A stretch of 40,916 nt of DNA from an uncultured Alphaproteobacteria bacterium (GTDB lineage Bacteria > Pseudomonadota > Alphaproteobacteria > Rhodobacterales > Rhodobacteraceae). Below the pieces are notes generated by a model. The model was not told the DNA's origin. It did not search any database and was given only the letters and a program-made list of their open reading frames with translations. This document shows, one piece after another, positions 1-8,083 of the stretch. The stretch spans positions 1-40,916 of the forward strand of contig CACBRT010000007.1 in assembly GCA_902541695.1 (NCBI GenBank), given 5' to 3'. A program made the position numbers and the translations under genes. Every line of letters starts with the position of its first letter. The stretch's first letter is position 1.

Positions 1-295
1 TTTCACAGCAAAATGAGATTCCAAAGGAAGAAGGTAAAATAGTACTTGCCATTATAAGAGGATCATCTGGATCGGTTTGCATTGAACCCTCATTTATTTC
101 CGGTCCACTGGCATTGTCAATGTCCTCGGCTTCAAGTTCTTGATTTTTTGGAAATAATATGCCGGTCAAATAACTAAGTTGCATACGCCCTTCTATAGTC
201 TCATGCTGAAAATCTCCGTTTTCATCGGGTATGCCTAGACCTGGGCCGAATAGTTTTGTTCTAAGTGTTTCAAGAATATGTTCTCTTCCCAACAC
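1..295 (-). CDS. N-terminus of a DrmA-like (DISARM-type) helicase, cut by window edge
   Basis: An open frame runs from a GTG at 295 to the window edge, giving about 98 residues. The GTG follows directly after the stop codon of the upstream NERD-helicase gene and has a GGGAGA ribosome site overlapping that gene's end, so the two are translationally coupled. Visible motifs are a start like REHILETLRTKLFGPG, then RMQLSYLTGILFPK, an acidic linker and ILPSSFGISF. As I recall it, this pattern (a GPG/GPS motif, then YLTGxLxP, then PSSxGxSF) is typical of the N-terminus of the large helicases annotated as DrmA of DISARM and its relatives. The helicase motors themselves lie outside the window, so the family is inferred from the N-terminus alone. 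Confidence 0.5.
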   Translation of the reverse strand, partial: MLGREHILETLRTKLFGPGLGIPDENGDFQHETIEGRMQLSYLTGILFPKNQELEAEDIDNASGPEINEGSMQTDPDDPLIMASTILPSSFGISFCCE

Positions 296-1924
296 CTATC
301 TCTCCCATTCTTTATCAATAAATTCAATTAATAACTCACGCTCTTCCTTTGTGCAAAGTAAAAAAATTGAATGCTTTGCTCTTGAAAAGCCTTGATAAAT
401 GTATTTACGGATTTTATGAAGATCGTTCTTGTCTCCAAAACCCAAAATGAAAACGATCGATTTTTCAAGACCTTTAAAATCCTCAACGGTAGAAATAGTT
501 ATTGAATCACGCGTAGATGAGACAGATCTATCAGAAATTTTTTCAGCAGTTAAATTTTTGCTATTCAAAAAATTGGTCAGACTTGAAGCCTTTCCCTCAT
601 CATAGGTCAGAATACATATCTCATCTCGGGACACTAAAGATGAAGCCTGCAATAATTCTCTTAACTCACCAATTAGGATTTCTTCTTCAAGATCTGTATT
701 GACAGTTAAAACTTTTACAGTCCCCCCTAATCCTATTGGGTCAGGGTCTTCCAAATTGATTTTAGTATGATATCTAATTGAATTTACAATTTGTGGCGTA
801 TTTCTAATATTTTTCTTTAATTTCCAGCTGGTAGGAGAAAATGATAAGAGATAATTAAAGGCATCTTCTTCAAAAGGAAAGCTTGGTGACACTTGATAGT
901 TTGGATCTCCAAACCACCTCCATCTTCCTTTTTCTACTCCTCCCTTTAATATACCATCCAATTTATCAATACTTTCTATTTGAGTAAGGTCTTGTCCTTC
1001 ATCAATTACTAGTACGTCAAATTTATCCTTTATCCTCATTTCATCTAATGATGAAAATGGTAAAATTGACAATTTCTCTGGAATTCTGATGCTAGATCTT
1101 AAGAAAGAGGCTAAAAATTGGCTTCTAGTAACAAATAAGACGGATTGATTCGCTAGAGCATCAGTCCTAGCTGCATACATCGCAATAAATGTTTTGCCTG
1201 TGCCAGCCCCTCCAGTAATAATAATCCTATCATTCTCCTGTATTGAATCAAAAGTGGAGTACTGTTCTTCAGTGAGTGAGAAGAATTTTTCCTCAACATC
1301 TTTAATTTGATGTCCAAGAGGAGGAACAATATCAAAATTTGGCCGTAAGAATTGTAGTATTTCACCTACAACATCTGGAGTTAGTTGGTTGTTAACCCCT
1401 AAGTTTTTGGACCAATACTCAAAAAGTCTATCAAGATAGAGGCTAAAAGAACCTGGGTTCTTACAATCCTCCAAAAATGCTGTAATTTCTAGAGGACATT
1501 CAGGTGAGCTCCTTTCTAGGAAATTTGGAATATCTGTAAAAACAACTCCAAAGCCCATTGGAATATCTTTGAGATCGCTTTTAAAGTTTTCGTTAAGATA
1601 ATTTCTTTCAAGTGAAAAAAATGCAGTCTTAGCCTGTTCCCAGGGACTTTCCCGTTTTCTATTTTTTCTTCCAAATCGATCGGTAAAAGTCCAAATTCCA
1701 TTTTCAGATTTTATTCTTCCACCTTTTACTTCAAGTAGAAAAATACCCCTTTCCCCGATTAATATAAAATCTGCCTCTGACCATCTTTTGTATACATGCT
1801 GAGCCAGATTTAGTGAATGAAGGGCTAAATCATTACTCTTAGTTTTTATTTGCTTAAGTAAAGTTAGTATTTTATTTTCTGCAGAGCTTGTATTTTGAAA
1901 AATTTCTTTTGGAATAACCTTCAT
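296..1924 (-). CDS. NERD-domain nuclease / superfamily 1 helicase
   Basis: A 542-residue protein with an N-terminal NERD nuclease-like domain (about residues 15-110; the core ADFILIGERGIFLLEVKGG at 51-69 holds the D...ExK residues) fused to a UvrD/DUF2075-type SF1 helicase. Walker A is GGAGTGKT at 238-245 and Walker B is VLVIDEGQD at 304-312. Late helicase motifs appear as STVEDFKGLE and YQGFSRAKHSIFLL near the C-terminus. NERD helicases are common in mobile islands and defence clusters, where they are thought to process DNA; the exact substrate is unknown. It sits between a small membrane-anchored zinc-ribbon gene and a DrmA-like gene on the same strand, and its stop abuts the GTG of the latter. 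Domain assignment is firm; the defence role is inferred from context. Confidence 0.85.
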   Translation of the reverse strand: MKVIPKEIFQNTSSAENKILTLLKQIKTKSNDLALHSLNLAQHVYKRWSEADFILIGERGIFLLEVKGGRIKSENGIWTFTDRFGRKNRKRESPWEQAKTAFFSLERNYLNENFKSDLKDIPMGFGVVFTDIPNFLERSSPECPLEITAFLEDCKNPGSFSLYLDRLFEYWSKNLGVNNQLTPDVVGEILQFLRPNFDIVPPLGHQIKDVEEKFFSLTEEQYSTFDSIQENDRIIITGGAGTGKTFIAMYAARTDALANQSVLFVTRSQFLASFLRSSIRIPEKLSILPFSSLDEMRIKDKFDVLVIDEGQDLTQIESIDKLDGILKGGVEKGRWRWFGDPNYQVSPSFPFEEDAFNYLLSFSPTSWKLKKNIRNTPQIVNSIRYHTKINLEDPDPIGLGGTVKVLTVNTDLEEEILIGELRELLQASSLVSRDEICILTYDEGKASSLTNFLNSKNLTAEKISDRSVSSTRDSITISTVEDFKGLEKSIVFILGFGDKNDLHKIRKYIYQGFSRAKHSIFLLCTKEERELLIEFIDKEWER

Positions 1925-2058
1925 TTTAAAAAAAACGCTTTTTATGAATTAACCCAATTATTAAAAAGAAGAGCCAATATAATGAGAAAAGTCAATGTTC
2001 TTAAAAGACTATTTAATATTTATTGCTTTATTCCAGTGATAAATAAGAAGTTTAGAAG

Positions 2059-2343
2059 TCATTCACTAAAAATTAAAACCAGTATTCCAACGACTATTGC
2101 ACCAAAAATCCAACCTCCCCAACCGGCGTTTTGCTTTGGCTCTGCTGGAGTATTCGGTGGCATAATTGTTTTTCCCCCACTATTTTGCGGTGGCATGATG
2201 GGTTTTCCCCCACTATTTTTTGGTTTCTTCCTATGTTTATGGGGTTTTTGAGTATTAATATCAAAAGCCACCCACTGCCCACCAGGCATTTCCCTTAGGC
2301 TAATTCGTTTTCCACAAGTTTCACAATTTCTTATATAAGCCAT
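2059..2343 (-). CDS. Small zinc-ribbon protein with C-terminal membrane anchor
   Basis: A 94-residue protein not assigned to a named family. The N-terminus has a CETCGKRISL half zinc ribbon (residues 7-16) followed by GGQWVAFD. The middle is basic (KPHKHRKKPK), then a near-perfect repeat, NSGGKPIMPPQ and NSGGKTIMPPN, rich in Pro and Gly. The last roughly 23 residues (WIFGAIVVGILVLIF) form one hydrophobic helix ending only two residues before the stop, as in a tail-anchored protein. It lies about 100 bp downstream of the exonuclease gene and 135 bp upstream of the NERD-helicase gene, all on the minus strand. It may be an adaptor that brings the cassette to the membrane; this is a guess from layout. 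The overlapping plus-strand frame at 1895-2251 is a shadow. Confidence 0.65.
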   Translation of the reverse strand: MAYIRNCETCGKRISLREMPGGQWVAFDINTQKPHKHRKKPKNSGGKPIMPPQNSGGKTIMPPNTPAEPKQNAGWGGWIFGAIVVGILVLIFSE

Positions 2344-2439
2344 ATTTAGATTTAAGATTTTTTATTTAAGATTTAAATAATGGAATTAAGTTTATTTCCT
2401 GTCAAATTATTAAGGTTAAAATAGATTTAGTTAAGTAAA

Positions 2440-3630
2440 TTATTTTGTAAAAAAAATAAGAGCCAGAAGTAAGAGAGCTATTATACCTATTTGATTTTTG
2501 GTCATACCCAAACCAAATATATAATGTTCAGGGCCAGAACTTTGCTTAGGTTCTTGTGTTTTTTGACTTTCTATATTTTTTTCCTGAATATTTACCCTCT
2601 CTTTCCTGATTTTTTGATTTTCTTTTTTAGACTGAAGCTTTGCTTCATTTTGTTTTTGTAATTCATAATTTTCTTCTAATGGTTTAACAAAAGCTTTTCT
2701 TGTTTCCTTTTTATTAGATTTTAAAATAGTTACACTATCTACTGAACTATGATAATTTTTTATTTCTCTTGAACTCTCATTAAATATATTGGAAAATTCC
2801 TCTGGAAATTCCTCTGGAAATTCCTTTAACAACCAAATCCAAACACTTCTACATGCCTGTGTATCTGCAAGGGCTCTGTGAGCATTTCCCACCCAGTTAT
2901 GTCCAACATATTTTGCGGCTTCAGTTAATTTGTATCTATTATTAATTTTCAAGCAACGCTTATAAGCTCTCATCGCACATATTACCTGAGATGGTTCAAA
3001 AAAGCCTTCAGGAAAAAACTGGAGGTCAAAACTTGAGTTATAAATTACCACATTCTTGTTTGTTGTAGCTACTTCAATTTTCGGTAAGATTTTTTCTAAT
3101 GTCGGGGCAGATGACACCATACTATCTGAAATACCATGAACACGTCTTGCCCCTGTTGGAATTTTCACTTCTGGATTGATTAATTCATTAATTAGAATTT
3201 TTCCCGTATCATCAATGATGGCAATTTCTACTATTTTATCACCCTTTTTGGCACTAAGCCCAGTTGTTTCAGTATCTAGATAAACAAAGTTATTTAAATT
3301 ATTTCTAGTAATCCTATCCATTTCTCCCAACTCAAAGGATACTTTCTTTTGTTTTAAATTAGCCTGAGTGTTTTTGGATCTATTTCCTTCCAAATGACGT
3401 AAAAAAAAATTTATCGCTGCTGGATTACATTGCACGCAATGACCAGATCTAGTTCTCATGGTATGATTAAATTTAGCACATGGAATAGTACCGATTGCAA
3501 GCCATTTATCTGAGGACTTCATTATCTCAGAGTAATCAGATTTTTTAAGACCTGTTGCATCAAAAACCTTTTCAACTGGTATTTTATGTTCGGTTATAAA
3601 TAATAGTTGTTCATCTGTTAAGCTAATCAT
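2440..3630 (-). CDS. DnaQ-type DEDDh 3'-5' exonuclease with N-terminal Cys/His domain and C-terminal membrane anchor
   Basis: A 396-residue, three-part protein. Residues 1-80 form a domain with C51, H56, H64, C65 and C68 (PCAKFNHTMRTRSGHCVQCN). I recall similar segments in front of GIY-YIG/T5orf172-like nuclease domains of island proteins. Residues about 115-270 are a DEDDh exonuclease: YLDTETTG (D119, E121), NSSFDLQF (D202) and HRALADT (H251, D256). A Lys/Glu/Gln-rich linker (about 290-370) leads to a final hydrophobic helix (IGIIALLLLALIFF), an apparent tail anchor. A 12-bp tandem repeat encodes FPEEFPEEF at about 271-279. It is the first gene of the leftward set that includes the NERD helicase and DrmA-like genes. 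The exonuclease fold is clear; its DNA or RNA target is unknown. Confidence 0.85.
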   Translation of the reverse strand: MISLTDEQLLFITEHKIPVEKVFDATGLKKSDYSEIMKSSDKWLAIGTIPCAKFNHTMRTRSGHCVQCNPAAINFFLRHLEGNRSKNTQANLKQKKVSFELGEMDRITRNNLNNFVYLDTETTGLSAKKGDKIVEIAIIDDTGKILINELINPEVKIPTGARRVHGISDSMVSSAPTLEKILPKIEVATTNKNVVIYNSSFDLQFFPEGFFEPSQVICAMRAYKRCLKINNRYKLTEAAKYVGHNWVGNAHRALADTQACRSVWIWLLKEFPEEFPEEFSNIFNESSREIKNYHSSVDSVTILKSNKKETRKAFVKPLEENYELQKQNEAKLQSKKENQKIRKERVNIQEKNIESQKTQEPKQSSGPEHYIFGLGMTKNQIGIIALLLLALIFFTK

Positions 3631-4041
3631 GTGTCACTCAAAAAACCTATTTTTTAAAAAATAAAAAATTATATAGATTAAATATTTGAGAACAAGTCTT
3701 AAGGTCACCTGCATCTCAAATATAAGTTATGTCTTAAATAAAATGTTATGAATATTAAAATAAGCTTGCTTTATATATTTTTTTAAGTTATCCAAGTTTT
3801 GTGCATATAGAAAGAAAAACAATCTTACCAACCTGCATTCCAAGCAAGGTGGTTTTAAAATGCGACCAAGAGGTAATAAATGGAGAATATATCAAGATGA
3901 AACTTAACTTATAAAAATTCAAAAACTTTGACTTGTAACAACTTTACAGGTTTGGTGTGTCCAAAATATGGACCTCCATGTTCTTTGAAATTTTGGCATC
4001 ACCTTGAATAATGATGTCATCCATCTTGATAAGGAGATTCT
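3631..4041. other. Divergent intergenic region with an imperfect hairpin and a possible integrase scrap
   Basis: This 411-bp gap separates the leftward defence-like genes from the rightward small-gene set and should hold both promoters. It contains an imperfect inverted repeat, 3827-3836 against 3844-3853 (8 of 10 pairs, 7-nt loop). A 15-codon frame at 3860-3907 begins MRPRGNKWRIYQ, which resembles the first residues of arm-binding domains of phage integrases but stops at once. A TTGACT occurs near 3929 without a convincing -10 box. I see no further gene here. Confidence 0.4.
3668..3695 (-). promoter_or_regulatory. Possible promoter of the exonuclease-led gene set
   Basis: On the minus strand a perfect TATAAT (3673-3668) lies about 38 bp before the exonuclease ATG. 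A weak TTGTTC (3695-3690) sits 16 bp upstream of it. Pattern match only, in a very AT-rich sequence where chance hits are common. Confidence 0.25.
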
Positions 4042-4431
4042 ATGAATATTCAGAATAATTTAACCACAGAAGATTTAATAAATGATTATGAAAATACATC
4101 CAGATATGAAGTTATTCTCACTAATAATTTTCTTGAATTCTTTCCAAATCCGGAAGAAAGAAAGTTTGCAATCGATGAAATTCTAGATTGTTTACTGAAT
4201 GATCACATGGCTGCCATAGATGAAGGTTATTTATTATTAATCGAAGGTATTATTCCATTTTATTCAGATGAAGCAGAATTAAATGGTGAAAGATTTAACT
4301 TTCATATTTATTTAAATAAAGAAAAAAATTATCTTCACCTGATTTTAGATAAGTCAAACAAAGGAGATAACTTTAAGTTTTTTAATATCAACCATGAAGA
4401 TAATATTACAATGAGTGAAATTATTCACTAA
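4042..4431 (+). CDS. Hypothetical acidic protein, first gene of small island operon
   Basis: A 129-residue protein I do not recognise. It is acidic (many Asp and Glu) and has no signal peptide or membrane helix. Hydrophobic stretches such as GYLLLIEGIIPFY alternate with charged segments, and NFHIYLNKEKNYLHLILD looks like a pair of beta strands, so a small alpha/beta globular domain is likely. The ATG has a good AAGGAG site seven bases upstream, supporting this start. It is the first gene of a rightward set of four in the island and is followed by a strong hairpin at 4443-4471. Its size and charge would also fit an immunity protein, antitoxin or DNA mimic, but nothing specific supports those. 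Confidence 0.6.
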   Translation: MNIQNNLTTEDLINDYENTSRYEVILTNNFLEFFPNPEERKFAIDEILDCLLNDHMAAIDEGYLLLIEGIIPFYSDEAELNGERFNFHIYLNKEKNYLHLILDKSNKGDNFKFFNINHEDNITMSEIIH

Positions 4432-4442
4432 ACAAAAGATTT

Positions 4443-4471
4443 CAGGCGGTTAAATCATTTCTAACCGCCTG
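4443..4471 (+). terminator. Perfect 10-bp hairpin after the 129-residue gene
   Basis: CAGGCGGTTA (4443-4452) and TAACCGCCTG (4462-4471) form a perfect GC-rich stem with a 9-nt loop, 12 bp after the stop at 4431. The downstream sequence has only a broken T run (CTTTAATTT), so it could be a terminator, an attenuator or an mRNA end-protecting stem. Confidence 0.5.
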
Positions 4472-4494
4472 TAAGGGCTCTTTAATTTCAACTT

Positions 4495-4522
4495 GTGCGC
4501 CCTGGCATCCTGCCAAAAGCAC
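4495..4522 (+). promoter_or_regulatory. Hairpin leader directly before the ribosome site of the 58-residue gene
   Basis: GTGC (4495-4498) pairs with GCAC (4519-4522), and inside it TGGCA (4503-4507) pairs with TGCCA (4511-4515) around a TCC loop. The stem ends 7 bp before the GGAG ribosome site (4529-4532), so it could tune translation. A frame opening from a GTG at 4495 would have to be translated through this leader; I prefer the ATG at 4540. Confidence 0.35.
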
Positions 4523-4539
4523 TAAAGCGGAGAAAATCG

Positions 4540-4716
4540 ATGAAAAATAACACCATTAAAAATAAATCCAAATCTATTAACTTAATGGATTATAACAAAT
4601 CCAAATACAAATCATGGCTGCAGCAGAAATATGCACAATTGCTGGGTCAGGAAATCCTTTTGAAAAGTGATGCTGAAGAATATTTATCTTTAGAAAAGGA
4701 GAAAAAGAATGGTTAA
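4540..4716 (+). CDS. Small hypothetical basic protein
   Basis: A 58-residue Lys-rich protein, not recognised. I use the ATG at 4540, which has GGAG at 4529-4532, rather than the in-frame GTG at 4495 that would run through a hairpin leader. The N-terminal half is Lys/Asn-rich (MKNNTIKNKSKSINLMDYNK). The C-terminal half, KSWLQQKYAQLLGQEILLKS followed by an acidic stretch, is predicted helical and amphipathic. Its last eight bases overlap the ATG of the next gene, so the two are probably translated together. No membrane segment or known motif is visible. Confidence 0.5.
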   Translation: MKNNTIKNKSKSINLMDYNKSKYKSWLQQKYAQLLGQEILLKSDAEEYLSLEKEKKNG

Positions 4717-4999
4717 AATTAAATCAAGAACTTGGGCAGAAAAAGATGATCCAATTTTTACAGGAAGATTTACATTTTCTTCTCATAGAAATATTCCCAT
4801 TTTTAATGAAAGAAACCAAAATGAAAAAATCTCAAAGTCAAAATTATCCAATTTCCAAAAAAATAATCCTGACAGTTATAAAATCCAAAATGACAAAGGA
4901 AGAGATTTATGTAAATCTAATAAAAAATCTAAGATTACAGGGACTAAAAATAATCAGAGATTAATAAATTCAAAGATAAAGGAGAAGAACTATGATTGA
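4709..4999 (+). CDS. Small hypothetical very basic protein
   Basis: A 96-residue protein, not recognised. It starts at an ATG overlapping the previous stop by eight bases, with an AAAGGAG site inside the upstream gene. Its end overlaps the next ATG by eight bases, making a coupled three-gene run. The N-terminal 35 residues (RTWAEKDDPIFTGRF and following) look like a folded motif. The remainder is dominated by Lys, Asn and Ser and is probably disordered or nucleic-acid binding. The competing frame at 4746-4964 has no ribosome site and is discarded. The low-complexity C-terminus makes this a weaker call than its neighbours. Confidence 0.45.
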   Translation: MVKIKSRTWAEKDDPIFTGRFTFSSHRNIPIFNERNQNEKISKSKLSNFQKNNPDSYKIQNDKGRDLCKSNKKSKITGTKNNQRLINSKIKEKNYD

Positions 5000-5591
5000 T
5001 AGACGTTCTTTTCTTATTGGTTCTGGCACATTGCTTACTACTTGTTTTGTAGATAAAGCGAACTGGTATTTAGACAATAAACAAACCGTTGTTCCATTAA
5101 TTAATCAAAATAAGTCACTGGAAAAGCTTTATTTTGTTAAAATATCCATTAGTGAATACGAAGTTAGATTGGGAACGCCTGACCTTTCTTATGAAAGCTT
5201 TCGTCGATTGACATATCGTGAAATGCTCGATCATTATAGAGGCGTATCTGAACCGAAAACATTGAGTGATTTTAGAGATATTTATCACGAATGGGGTATT
5301 ACTCCGAAGATGCTCGATCAATTTGCTGATCCCATGGAATATGTCGATGACTGGGGGAGAATTGATAGCCCGAAAGCCAAAGCTTATCATTATTTAGAAA
5401 CTTTAGACTTGTTTGGATCTAATGGGATTGGTGGATTAAGACGCGGTGATTTACAGTTTGTAGACGGAGCATTTCCTGGTAGTGATTATTTGGCAGTTGT
5501 TTCTAATGATGCTTTATCAGCTAGTCTTCTTCAAGCGAGGTTACTGGAATTAGGTGAGAAAACATACGTAGAGTTAATTCCAGAAAGTTAA
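4992..5591 (+). CDS. Hypothetical protein with twin-arginine (Tat) signal
   Basis: A 199-residue protein of unknown function. The N-terminus MIDRRSFLIGSGTLLTTC carries a twin-arginine pattern (R4-R5-S-F-L) and a short hydrophobic stretch, consistent with Tat export of a folded protein. The Cys at 18 sits where a lipobox Cys could be, but LTTC is a poor lipobox. The mature part is acidic, with YREMLDHYRGVSEP, LSDFRDIYHEWGITPKMLDQ and a Gly-rich GSNGIGGLRRGDLQFVDGAFPGSDY segment. The ATG has GGAGAAG just upstream and overlaps the previous gene by eight bases. Similar Tat-signal proteins of unknown function occur in mobile islands of other proteobacteria, as I recall. It is followed by the structured non-coding stretch. 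Confidence 0.65.
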   Translation: MIDRRSFLIGSGTLLTTCFVDKANWYLDNKQTVVPLINQNKSLEKLYFVKISISEYEVRLGTPDLSYESFRRLTYREMLDHYRGVSEPKTLSDFRDIYHEWGITPKMLDQFADPMEYVDDWGRIDSPKAKAYHYLETLDLFGSNGIGGLRRGDLQFVDGAFPGSDYLAVVSNDALSASLLQARLLELGEKTYVELIPES

Positions 5592-5610
5592 ATTTAAATA
5601 ATGGTATTAT

Positions 5611-5940
5611 GATGGGTGGGTTATTTCTTGCCCGTCAACACTAAATTGACCTTTAGTGAGTCCTGAAGGGAAATCCATCCATCAGTTACTTTTATTAAAT
5701 TGACACACTTAGCCTTCCGCAGGCTAAGGCGCTTGACCTTCAGAGTCGTCTCTTCGGTCAATCCATTCGATATAGCGACACCATTTTTTGGTCGAGGGCG
5801 GTTACGCGGTCTCCTCTTTATTCGCTGCCTATTTTATAACGCAGAACTACAAGGCGGCTATATCGACAACCGCCATTGTTATCCGCAGGTTACCGCTAGG
5901 TAGAGCCTGCTCGTAAGACCTTTTGAAATGATAAATTTCA
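5611..5940 (+). ncRNA. GC-richer hairpin-dense element, candidate structured RNA
   Basis: This non-coding stretch is clearly richer in GC than its surroundings and packed with inverted repeats. 5611-5619 pairs with 5675-5683 (9 pairs, one a G-U on the plus strand). CACTAAA 5639-5645 pairs with TTTAGTG 5652-5658. CTTAGCCT 5708-5715 pairs with AGGCTAAG 5721-5728. TTGACC 5733-5738 pairs with GGTCAA 5756-5761 around AGAG-TCGT-CTCT. CGATATAGC 5768-5776 pairs with GCTATATCG 5857-5865 as a long-range 9-bp stem. GCAGG 5885-5889 pairs with CCTGC 5906-5910 enclosing TACC/GGTA. TGAAAT 5924-5929 pairs with ATTTCA 5935-5940. GGCGGTT 5797-5803 and AACCGCC 5868-5874 could form a pseudoknot. I recognise no known RNA family (no tmRNA or RNase P signatures). 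It could instead be a single-strand DNA recombination or replication site. The frame at 5700-5903 looks incidental. Confidence 0.45.
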
Positions 5941-6045
5941 GAGCTGATCATTTAACTCAACTGAGGTCACCGCTACACCAAGCGCTAGTTTAAGAGCCCT
6001 ATTTTAGCTACCCTTTACAGTCATTTATTTATAAAATTAATCGTT
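5941..6045. other. Spacer between hairpin element and AlpA-like gene
   Basis: About 100 bp with no gene. GGTC at 5965-5968 can pair with GACC at 5917-5920, so the structured element may extend to about 5970. Nothing else is supported. Confidence 0.3.
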
Positions 6046-6339
6046 TTACGAAGCTATTTTTGCCTTAACACGTCTCTGATAGATTTGATCTAAATCCCTG
6101 GAAGTCTGGGGACATCGTACTTTAACGCGATGTTCAGATAAATCTCCTACTTGAGATCGTTTTCTATTCAACAGCCATTCATCGACTTCGTCTTTAAGAA
6201 AACCAATTCTTCTTTCACTAATCTGAATAGCCTTGGGAAAGTCTTGAATAATTCGAAGCCTATTTAAGGTAGATACAGAAAATCCACAATATTCAGCCGT
6301 TGCAGATAAACAAAGAATTTTATTGGAAGTATTAAACAT
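6046..6339 (-). CDS. AlpA-family helix-turn-helix regulator / excisionase
   Basis: A 97-residue protein with a winged-helix AlpA/MerR-like DNA-binding domain in its first 60 residues: LSATAEYCGFSVSTLNRLRI, then DFPKAIQISERRIGFLKDEVDEWLL, the usual AlpA pattern of 'FPK..(I/L)..R..GFL..EV..W'. The C-terminal 35 residues are basic and probably unstructured. AlpA-type proteins act as transcription factors or recombination directionality factors for P4-type integrases. This gene lies 67 bp downstream of the integrase on the same strand, a classic pairing. It may control integrase expression or excision; which of the two cannot be told from sequence. Confidence 0.8.
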   Translation of the reverse strand: MFNTSNKILCLSATAEYCGFSVSTLNRLRIIQDFPKAIQISERRIGFLKDEVDEWLLNRKRSQVGDLSEHRVKVRCPQTSRDLDQIYQRRVKAKIAS

Positions 6340-6406
6340 AAACTTGTTGCCTTCAGTTATTATTACAAAGAAACAATCATTCTTATTATTTTAAGAACCT
6401 TTATTT

Positions 6407-7687
6407 CTATTTATAATATACCATACTGGATATACTTAGATCTTTATTTTTTTTACTTTTTTTAATCTTTTTTTCACTGACATATAAATTGGGATGAGTT
6501 TTATCTTCATTGACTATGAAAGCACTCCAATCAGTCATTATTTTGCTTCTAAAGACTAATAAATCGTCCCTTTGATAAGCTTTTTCTACTTTATTACCAA
6601 AATTATGGCTCAAACAATATTCAAGAGATCTTACCGTATAAGATCCTGAGGTTTCTCCCCAGTCTCTAAAGGTCGAACGAAAACCATGAACAGTAATATC
6701 AAAATGAGAAAATTTTCTATATACAAGCGATAGCATGGACATATTTGAAATAGGTTTTTTCCCATTAAAGGAAAAAACATATCTATCAGAAATTGATCTT
6801 GCCTTAATTTTCTTTAATATTTCAAGTGCGAGGTTGCTCAAAGGAACTCGATGCAATCTACCTGTTTTCATTCGCTCTTTAGGGATCATCCATAAAGCCT
6901 GATCGAAGTCAAATTCATTCCATTGCGCCTTTATAACTTCAATGGTTCTAGCGGCTGTTAAGATTAAAAATTGTAATGCAAGACTAGACATTCCTTCCAA
7001 TTGAATCAAAGATTGCCAAAAATGAGGAAGATCACGTACTGCCAAGGCTTTATGGTGATTTTGATGCATAGTAGGCTGTTTCGGTAAAAGAAACTCTAAA
7101 TTCCCCTTGAGAATAGCAGGATTGTCTCCAGAGCAATACTTCATGGTTTTTGACCAATTCCATACCCTTTCAATTCTCTGGCGTACACGACGGGCTGTTT
7201 CTGCCTTATTCATCCAAATTGGCTTTAAAAGCTTTGCTAAATTGTTAGATTGAATATCTTGTATAGGTATATCTTTTATGAAGGGAAAGGCATAAGTACG
7301 AAGAGTATTGATCCATTGTTGATGATGTTTTGGATTTTTCCAGGTATCTTTTGTGGCTTCAAAACAAAGATAAGTTACCCTTTCAAAGGTCATATCATCT
7401 AATTTAAGTTTCTGAAGACGGTTTTCATCCCTCTCCTTTAAAGGATCAATACCCTCATTCACCCTTACTTTCTGAAGATCGCGGAGTTGTCGGGCTTTTT
7501 TTAACGAAATAAAGGGATATCCCCCCAAACCCATGTCTCTGCGTTTGCCCTTGAATTGGTAGCGAAAGACCCAACTCTTCGATCCCTTGTGATTGACGAT
7601 AAGATATAAACCATGACCATCGGCGTATCTTCCACGATGATAGATTGTATTAATTTTTAAAGTTGTTAGTTGCATATTTTTTCCCAC
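6407..7687 (-). CDS. P4-type tyrosine integrase
   Basis: A 426-residue site-specific recombinase. The N-terminus is the DUF4102 arm-binding type (GRYADGHGLYLIV, SWVFRYQFKGKRRDMGLGGY, about residues 18-57), followed by a core-binding SAM-like domain (about 100-185) and the catalytic domain. Catalytic residues are visible: R247 in LTAARTIEV, H334 and R337 in TVHGFRSTFRDWG, H361 in LSHN, and the nucleophile Y371 in KAYQRDD. The length is normal and all residues are present, so it should be active. It starts 137 bp from the 3' end of the tRNA-Ser gene and reads away from it, as expected for an island inserted into that tRNA. The AlpA-like gene follows. Confidence 0.93.
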   Translation of the reverse strand: MGKNMQLTTLKINTIYHRGRYADGHGLYLIVNHKGSKSWVFRYQFKGKRRDMGLGGYPFISLKKARQLRDLQKVRVNEGIDPLKERDENRLQKLKLDDMTFERVTYLCFEATKDTWKNPKHHQQWINTLRTYAFPFIKDIPIQDIQSNNLAKLLKPIWMNKAETARRVRQRIERVWNWSKTMKYCSGDNPAILKGNLEFLLPKQPTMHQNHHKALAVRDLPHFWQSLIQLEGMSSLALQFLILTAARTIEVIKAQWNEFDFDQALWMIPKERMKTGRLHRVPLSNLALEILKKIKARSISDRYVFSFNGKKPISNMSMLSLVYRKFSHFDITVHGFRSTFRDWGETSGSYTVRSLEYCLSHNFGNKVEKAYQRDDLLVFRSKIMTDWSAFIVNEDKTHPNLYVSEKKIKKSKKNKDLSISSMVYYK

Positions 7688-7723
7688 ACTTTTTCCACCC
7701 CTTTGCCTGATATGACATGAAGG

Positions 7724-7817
7724 CTTATGATTACAATTACATCATAATATCATGCTATCTAATTGATTTAACGTGAAAAACTGGGTTCTTATGATGTCTT
7801 ATGACATCTTATGAATT
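7724..7817. repeat. Phased CTTATGA repeats, candidate integrase or Xis arm sites
   Basis: CTTATGA occurs at 7788-7794, 7798-7804 and 7808-7814, exactly 10 bp apart, with a further copy at 7724-7730. The repeats fill the gap between the integrase start and the tRNA 3' end. One-helical-turn spacing next to an attachment site suggests binding of integrase arms or of the AlpA-like protein. Confidence 0.5.
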
Positions 7818-7824
7818 CAAGTGC

Positions 7825-7914
7825 TGGCGGAGGAGGTGGGATTCGAACCCACGGAAGAGTTGCCCCTTCGCCGGTTTTCAAGACCGGTACATTCAACCGC
7901 TCTGTCACTCCTCC
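7825..7914 (-). tRNA. tRNA-Ser (anticodon UGA), likely island attachment site
   Basis: A 90-nt gene read on the minus strand. The acceptor GGAGGAG pairs with CTCCTCC and is followed by an encoded GCCA end (CCA at 7827-7825). The anticodon loop CTTGAAA between CCGGT and ACCGG gives anticodon TGA. A long variable arm (GGCGAAGGGGCAACTCTTCC region) and a T-loop GGGTTCGAATCCC are present, so this is a class II serine tRNA. The gene is intact. Its 3' end faces the integrase, making the 3' half the likely attachment core; the matching repeat at the far island end would lie left of the window. Confidence 0.95.
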
Positions 7915-8083
7915 AAGTTTAATACAAGCCATTGTTTAGTTTGAGAAGGCTTGAAAAAAATAACTTATTTTAGTAATTTTTTAAAATTTATAACATTATT
8001 TTTTAAGAAAACAATTCTAAATTTTAAAACATAAACATTCAATTAAAAAAATATATTTAATTTAAGTTATTTATTAAATAATT

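Follow-up and report, generated by a model that had tools for sequence, protein, structure and literature searches.

The window, by which we mean the whole stretch of DNA analysed, is the entire contig C7 (40,916 bases; GenBank CACBRT010000007.1) from the assembly of an uncultured alphaproteobacterium (1.55 Mb, 95 contigs, estimated completeness 70%), and its base 1 is an assembly edge. It probably represents the proximal end of an integrative island at a tRNA-Ser gene, with a cargo that includes a DISARM-related defence cassette composed of a NERD nuclease-helicase, DrmA and, as we infer, a DrmB encoded in an assembly gap. Four open reading frames on the minus strand (98, 542, 94 and 396 residues) occupy the left end of the window; all four, proposed in a preliminary description of the sequence as a possible defence module that may be located at the membrane, were verified. 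The DrmA assignment and the linkage of the NERD helicase to DrmA withstood the analysis and extend to 24 further loci. The membership of the other two proteins, a DnaQ-like exonuclease and a small zinc protein, did not: homologues of both are missing from these loci and from the island of a congener.

A conserved unit of NERD helicase, DrmA and DrmB

The protein encoded at 296..1924 on the minus strand (542 residues) carries a NERD nuclease domain of the PD-(D/E)xK type (PF08378, E 1e-9, passing the Pfam cut-off) and a superfamily 1 (SF1) helicase likewise above the Pfam cut-offs, in agreement with its earlier designation as a NERD/SF1 helicase. Its best PADLOC profile is RTasNERD-Hel (161 bits), and the motifs LEVKGG (NERD), GAGTGKT (Walker A) and DEGQD (Walker B) are intact. 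The stop codon at 298-296 is directly abutted by the GTG start codon, at 295, of the leftmost frame (2..295, minus strand), so the zero gap noted before between the two genes was recovered. This frame is predicted to encode the N-terminal 98 residues of a DrmA-type (YprA family) superfamily 2 helicase, open to and cut by the contig end. The matches to the PADLOC DrmA profile (E 1e-3, collinear, 4-97 on 3-97) and to the NCBIfam model DISARM_DrmAS (0.0036) are weak because only 98 residues are present. A pairwise comparison with DrmA of Deinococcus gobiensis gave 4e-7, and the frame aligns through the GP, YLxGxLFP and PSSxGxSF blocks of ten DrmA N-termini, one of them from DISARM. The full-length Deinococcus DrmA matches the solved DISARM DrmA structure 7s9v with E 1e-132; a PDB search with the 98-residue piece returned no match. 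The possibility that the leftmost frame is not a DrmA-type helicase was thus checked, and the DrmA-like N-terminus recognized in the preliminary description survives.

The top plasmid relatives of the NERD helicase, from D. gobiensis and Rhodococcus opacus, are directly followed by genes for a DrmA-like helicase and then a DUF1998 protein. Scanning a three-sequence alignment against the genomes of 84,980 species yielded 35 relatives, 17 of which have DrmA within a few genes; in the first-listed set (L015-L025) this holds for 11 of 11. With four loci on plasmids and three in genomes from the same class added, these 17 make up 24 DrmA-linked NERD loci, distributed over Proteobacteria, Actinomycetota, Deinococcota, Planctomycetota, Sumerlaeota and one Clostridium. 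Beyond them, a genome of the same genus as the source of the window (G665, hereafter the congener) also carries a homologous NERD helicase with DrmA and DrmB. Most of the 24 loci have the gene order NERD-DrmA-DrmB; a subset has DrmA-DrmB-NERD with an SF1 ATPase and a protein of about 530 residues between DrmB and NERD. DrmB is present throughout except in L025, where the contig stops at DrmA (in L015 it stops inside DrmB), and the DrmA and DrmB profiles are matched by the relatives' proteins. In a reference search, 17 of the 24 loci had Dcm and 11 had Vsr in their vicinity, and NaeI and HNH nucleases lie close to several of them. The gene upstream of NERD differs among the relatives and encodes a DUF1232-containing protein, a SACS-domain helicase, UvrD-like helicases or other proteins without assignment. 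No DrmC homologue was detected within the flanks searched of any of the 24 loci, with a search in which both DrmC references recovered their own loci, nor in the examined stretch of the congener's island.

In a maximum-likelihood tree, the NERD helicase of the window falls into a clade (support 100/98) with DrmA-linked helicases (21 of 21) and no unlinked ones. Its best-supported neighbour (95/88) is from Xenophilus aerolatus, with a cassette that includes Vsr and Dcm. In another relative (G160), the cassette adjoins Dcm, Vsr, HATPase/HEF_HK and Response_reg_2 proteins. By these sequence comparisons, the NERD-SF1 helicase and DrmA are a genuine conserved pair, and the earlier view that the pair differs from standard DISARM is supported.

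The relation to DISARM was further examined with the NCBI model for DISARM DrmA, which has a curated cut-off of 950 bits. DrmA of five NERD-linked relatives and of L077, a locus with no NERD, scored 820-875 bits and that of the congener 907 bits; the Calothrix DISARM DrmA, used as a control, reached 1234 bits and the L041 protein 387 bits. The window itself offers only the 98-residue piece for such a comparison. The two DrmB proteins that were scored, from a relative and from the congener, exceeded the cut-off of the broader DrmB_fam model. An unrooted DrmA tree, with DISARM represented by three class-1 proteins, sets these three apart as a single group (100/100) from the NERD-linked DrmA; DrmA of L072/L073 is placed adjacent to DISARM. 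Because the relatives' DrmA lie below the 950-bit cut-off, the cassette of the window is classified, from its sequence affiliations, as a DISARM relative and not as canonical DISARM.

An origin of the NERD helicase from phages was considered and rejected, since phages gave no match and viral contigs gave helicase-core fragments only. As a separate observation, a large protein that contains sigma-70 regions 2-4 or is related to one that does adjoins the NERD helicase in three loci of Pseudarthrobacter/Arthrobacter (L033, L036, L037) and on a Burkholderia plasmid (L080), and adjoins DrmA-DrmB-SF1 helicase on a Streptomyces plasmid (L075).

The exonuclease and the 94-residue zinc protein

The rightmost of the four frames (2440..3630, minus strand, 396 residues) encodes a DEDDh (DnaQ-like) exonuclease, as had been recognized earlier. 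It matches RNase_T (PF00929, E 9e-20, passing the Pfam cut-off) far more strongly than the RNase_H_2 family, has DEDDh and PDC-S48 matches in PADLOC and retains the motifs DTETTGL, SFDLQ and HRALADT behind an N-terminal zinc module (CxnH...GHCVQC). The frame between exonuclease and NERD helicase (2059..2343, minus strand) encodes a zinc-ribbon-like protein of 94 residues that matches neither a Pfam nor a PADLOC family. Both proteins end in a hydrophobic stretch of 20-25 residues, with 19-residue Kyte-Doolittle means of 2.2 (94 residues) and 1.9 (396 residues), which confirms the hydrophobic ends described for two of the four proteins. The gene for the 94-residue protein is separated from that of the exonuclease by 96 bases and from that of the NERD helicase by 134 bases, without coupling. 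A scan for promoters and terminators gave no more signal than shuffled sequence.

Neither protein is conserved with the NERD-DrmA system: homologues occur in 0 of the 24 DrmA-linked NERD loci, and none was found in the congener's version of the island. Homologues of the two proteins as partners of NERD helicases were sought on plasmids, in phages and viral contigs, and in 289 genomes from the class and 398 from the phylum, with 157 close relatives added for the exonuclease only. This search returned modular and unlinked matches only and no repeated co-occurrence with NERD helicases, and the two proteins were rejected as partners of the NERD helicase. The zinc module of the exonuclease instead occurs as a fusion with GIY-YIG/T5orf172 nucleases, namely on a Bradyrhizobium plasmid, in two genomes (G515 and G358) and on a viral contig (L063); the nuclease is supported by annotation or a Pfam match in Bradyrhizobium and G515 and was read by eye in the other two. 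The G515 protein (L061:9168-10103) consists of zinc module, T5orf172 nuclease, linker and C-terminal hydrophobic segment, the layout of the exonuclease of the window with another nuclease, and it adjoins an integrase and an AlpA-like gene. The N-terminus of the 94-residue protein recurs on a Bradyrhizobium plasmid near AbiE, SIR2 and DUF2130 genes, there within a longer protein with several hydrophobic segments.

Most likely, the exonuclease and the tailed zinc protein are independent mobile cargo of the island and not parts of the system. The exonuclease itself may well be membrane-anchored, as its C-terminal tail suggests. Because the two proteins do not belong to the conserved system, membrane placement is unsupported as a shared property of a module, and the four-gene membrane module is without support beyond the single locus of the window.

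The integrative island at tRNA-Ser and its far half

The cassette belongs to an integrase-linked island, as the preliminary description held. The integration site is a tRNA-Ser(tga) gene (7825..7914, minus strand; RF00005), followed by a P4-type tyrosine integrase (6407..7687, minus strand; PF22022, PF13356 and PF00589; 679 bits to the integrase of the congener's island) and an AlpA-type excisionase/regulator (6046..6339, minus strand; PF05930, E 2e-7), an order that is standard for such islands. The 3' end of the tRNA gene is the attachment-site core (7825..7844; GAATCCCACCTCCTCCGCCA on the minus strand). This 20-bp sequence has one further exact copy in the assembly (C10:23301-23320), which is not within any tRNA. 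The element thus combines a tyrosine integrase at a tRNA gene, AlpA and direct repeats at both ends, its own far end being assigned by homology, as is characteristic of P4-type integrative islands.

Cargo and backbone meet at a SAM-I/IV riboswitch aptamer (3798..3890, plus strand; RF01725, 56.4 bits, cut-off 41.1). The backbone genes encode proteins of 129 (4042..4431), 96 (4709..4999) and 199 residues (4992..5591), all on the plus strand; the first, 3' of the riboswitch, lies in a 745-bp block conserved in the congener's island at 89.5% identity, and the other two were defined as open reading frames and by comparison with the congener. The riboswitch is located about 150 bases upstream of the 129-residue gene and occurs also in the congener's island (L091:3029-3121, minus strand, 56.2 bits); to find a riboswitch of the methionine type on a defence island of the integrative kind was unexpected.

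The congener has an identical set of tRNA, integrase, AlpA and backbone genes. Its island measures 33.3 kb and bears the 20-bp repeat at both ends (C1:109641-109660 and 142916-142935), and positions 3802-7959 of the window share 82-90% DNA identity with it. In both islands the cargo starts immediately past the common riboswitch. The cargo of the congener encodes Dcm, a 1062-residue protein, NERD helicase, DrmA, DrmB and a divergent Vsr; it is complete, and it is different from and inverted relative to that of the window. Within the genome of the window, C10:2909-15411 matches the far half of the congener's island at 92-95% identity, and therefore C7 and C10 are taken as two halves of one island, joined by homology, not by reads. 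The missing part of drmA, together with drmB should the genome have it, would be located in the unassembled gap between C7 and C10.

The opening genes of C10 encode a UvrD-like helicase and a 156-residue protein and continue in the same direction. They take the position that an SF1 ATPase has in closer relatives, but similarity is weak and membership in the system is not claimed. The 156-residue protein (L095:2273-2743) has an N-terminal CxxC...C zinc-like motif and appears GIY-YIG-like by eye, with no Pfam match. The far half of the island on C10 (L095, L087, L096) encodes in addition a VWA protein, a 1147-residue RNase_H_2/AAA helicase, a MORN-repeat protein, a second integrase and several unassigned proteins. 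The flank of the attachment region occurs twice within C10 (18219-18311 and 23216-23476), which suggests nested or tandem insertions at the far end.

Alternative explanations, proposed function and comparison with known systems

Several points weigh against a DISARM-related cassette on an integrative island. DrmA is visible in the window over 98 residues only, the identity of the NERD helicase to its relatives is only about 33%, the NERD proteins of L041 and L072/L073 sit outside the main clade of the tree, and DrmA is missing from the vicinity of some of the more distant NERD helicases. Searches for DUF1998/DrmB, the remaining DrmA and a cytosine methylase (PF00145) found nothing convincing elsewhere in the 70%-complete assembly, so that the completeness of the cassette is unproven in its own genome. 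The last finding would also fit a decayed remnant, with a drmA truncated in the genome itself and an island that no longer defends. We consider this highly doubtful: the DrmA frame runs on without a stop codon until the contig ends, which places the break at the assembly edge, the NERD motifs are intact, C10 starts inside the island at another contig edge, and the assembly reaches a completeness of only 70%. Canonical DISARM, with drmB, drmC and methylase in the assembly gap, is very unlikely. The DrmA N-terminus and the DrmAB core common to DISARM agree with it, as does the variability of DISARM operons, which are often without drmC (PMC9142583); the NERD clade of the window, however, is without DrmC in all loci examined, the relatives' DrmA fall below the DISARM cut-off, and the three DISARM-locus DrmA group separately (in an unrooted tree with three class-1 rows only).

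It is unlikely that all four genes form one module, in which a membrane-tethered DEDDh exonuclease would be the effector, the tailed zinc protein its partner, and the NERD helicase and DrmA the sensor and motor. The genes for exonuclease, 94-residue protein, NERD helicase and DrmA are co-directional and in this order, the variable gene upstream of NERD makes a local replacement possible, G515 encodes another zinc-module nuclease that has a hydrophobic segment at its C-terminus, and in Bacillus subtilis a 3'-5' exonuclease is the partner of the YprA helicase MrfA (PMC12458937). Against this stand the absence of both proteins from the 24 loci and from the congener's island, the uncoupled intergenic gaps and the separate movement of the zinc module with GIY-YIG nucleases. 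It appears quite unlikely, too, that the NERD-DrmAB unit here replaced its upstream module by recruiting a DEDDh exonuclease tethered to the membrane (with zinc module, nuclease, linker and tail anchor) along with a tail-anchored zinc protein; if it did, the membrane would be the site where invader DNA, once processed, is degraded. The same repair helicase MrfA and its exonuclease partner (PMC12458937) could place the genes in a DNA-repair cassette rather than in defence. This is most improbable, as a separate DrmB gene, variable mobile-island cargo and the relatives' Dcm, Vsr, NaeI and HNH neighbours fit restriction or defence, and the exonuclease resembles RNase_T far more than RNase_H_2.

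For the DISARM-related cassette, a mechanism can be proposed by analogy. In DISARM, a trigger loop keeps the DrmAB complex inactive until single-stranded or 5'-overhang DNA activates it, and the nuclease DrmC is dispensable (PMC9142583). DrmA and DrmB of the cassette may likewise pair into a heterodimeric helicase and load on invader DNA that is single-stranded or has a 5' overhang, as solved for DISARM DrmAB (PMC9142583). The NERD-SF1 protein would then cut and translocate, standing in for the absent DrmC. DNA structure would protect the host's own DNA, as would cytosine methylation marking self in cassettes with Dcm; Vsr would repair the T:G mismatches that arise from deaminated 5-methylcytosine. 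NERD is a candidate answer to the question which nuclease works with DrmAB where DrmC is absent. No paper describing NERD-DrmA-DrmB as a system was found in the literature searched, which did not cover the founding paper on DISARM (Ofir 2018). Recurring in several phyla, with a DrmA just under the DISARM cut-off and therefore easily missed, NERD-DrmA-DrmB is apparently a widespread DISARM relative unnamed in that literature. The two congeneric islands, with one backbone and two different, oppositely oriented NERD-DrmA cassettes, show that cargo has been exchanged at one defined position; the complete cassette of the congener is open to direct testing.

The cassette shares with DISARM (drmA-drmB-drmC and a methyltransferase) the DrmA-type helicase and, in relatives with long enough loci, a separate DrmB/DUF1998 gene, as well as, among the relatives, a frequent nearby cytosine methylase, and the location in mobile defence islands. 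It differs by the NERD-SF1 nuclease-helicase in the operon, by the lack of the PLD nuclease DrmC within the examined flanks, by DrmA proteins that, where scored, lie below the curated cut-off and, among the relatives, by common Vsr and type II restriction nuclease (NaeI, HNH) neighbours. Among the systems named in a survey of YprA helicases (ARMADA, BRIGADE and TALON; Bell et al. 2025, PMC12458937), TALON likewise combines a YprA-family helicase with a NERD-type nuclease. The helicase of TALON is ARMADA-like and carries an inactivated RNase H fold domain at its C-terminus; it is not part of a DrmA/DrmB pair and is accompanied by TPR-CSD and TBP genes (PMC12458937). In contrast, the helicase N-terminus of the window is DrmA-like, DrmB is a separate gene in the relatives, and the NERD domain and the SF1 helicase are joined in one protein. 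The restriction-modification operons of Vsr, Dcm, GHKL (paraMORC) and helicase genes (Iyer et al. 2008, PMC2292703; PMC8011034) resemble the neighbourhood of the G160 cassette, whereas the window has no GHKL or Dcm gene. In a text search, NERD and DUF1998 were unmentioned in both papers and DrmB was unmentioned in PMC8011034. A NERD domain and a helicase are also combined in Nhi, in the DRT-associated RTasNERD-Hel and in Mokosh type I. These act alone or with other partners (a reverse transcriptase for DRT), whereas the protein of the window groups with the DrmA-linked helicases.

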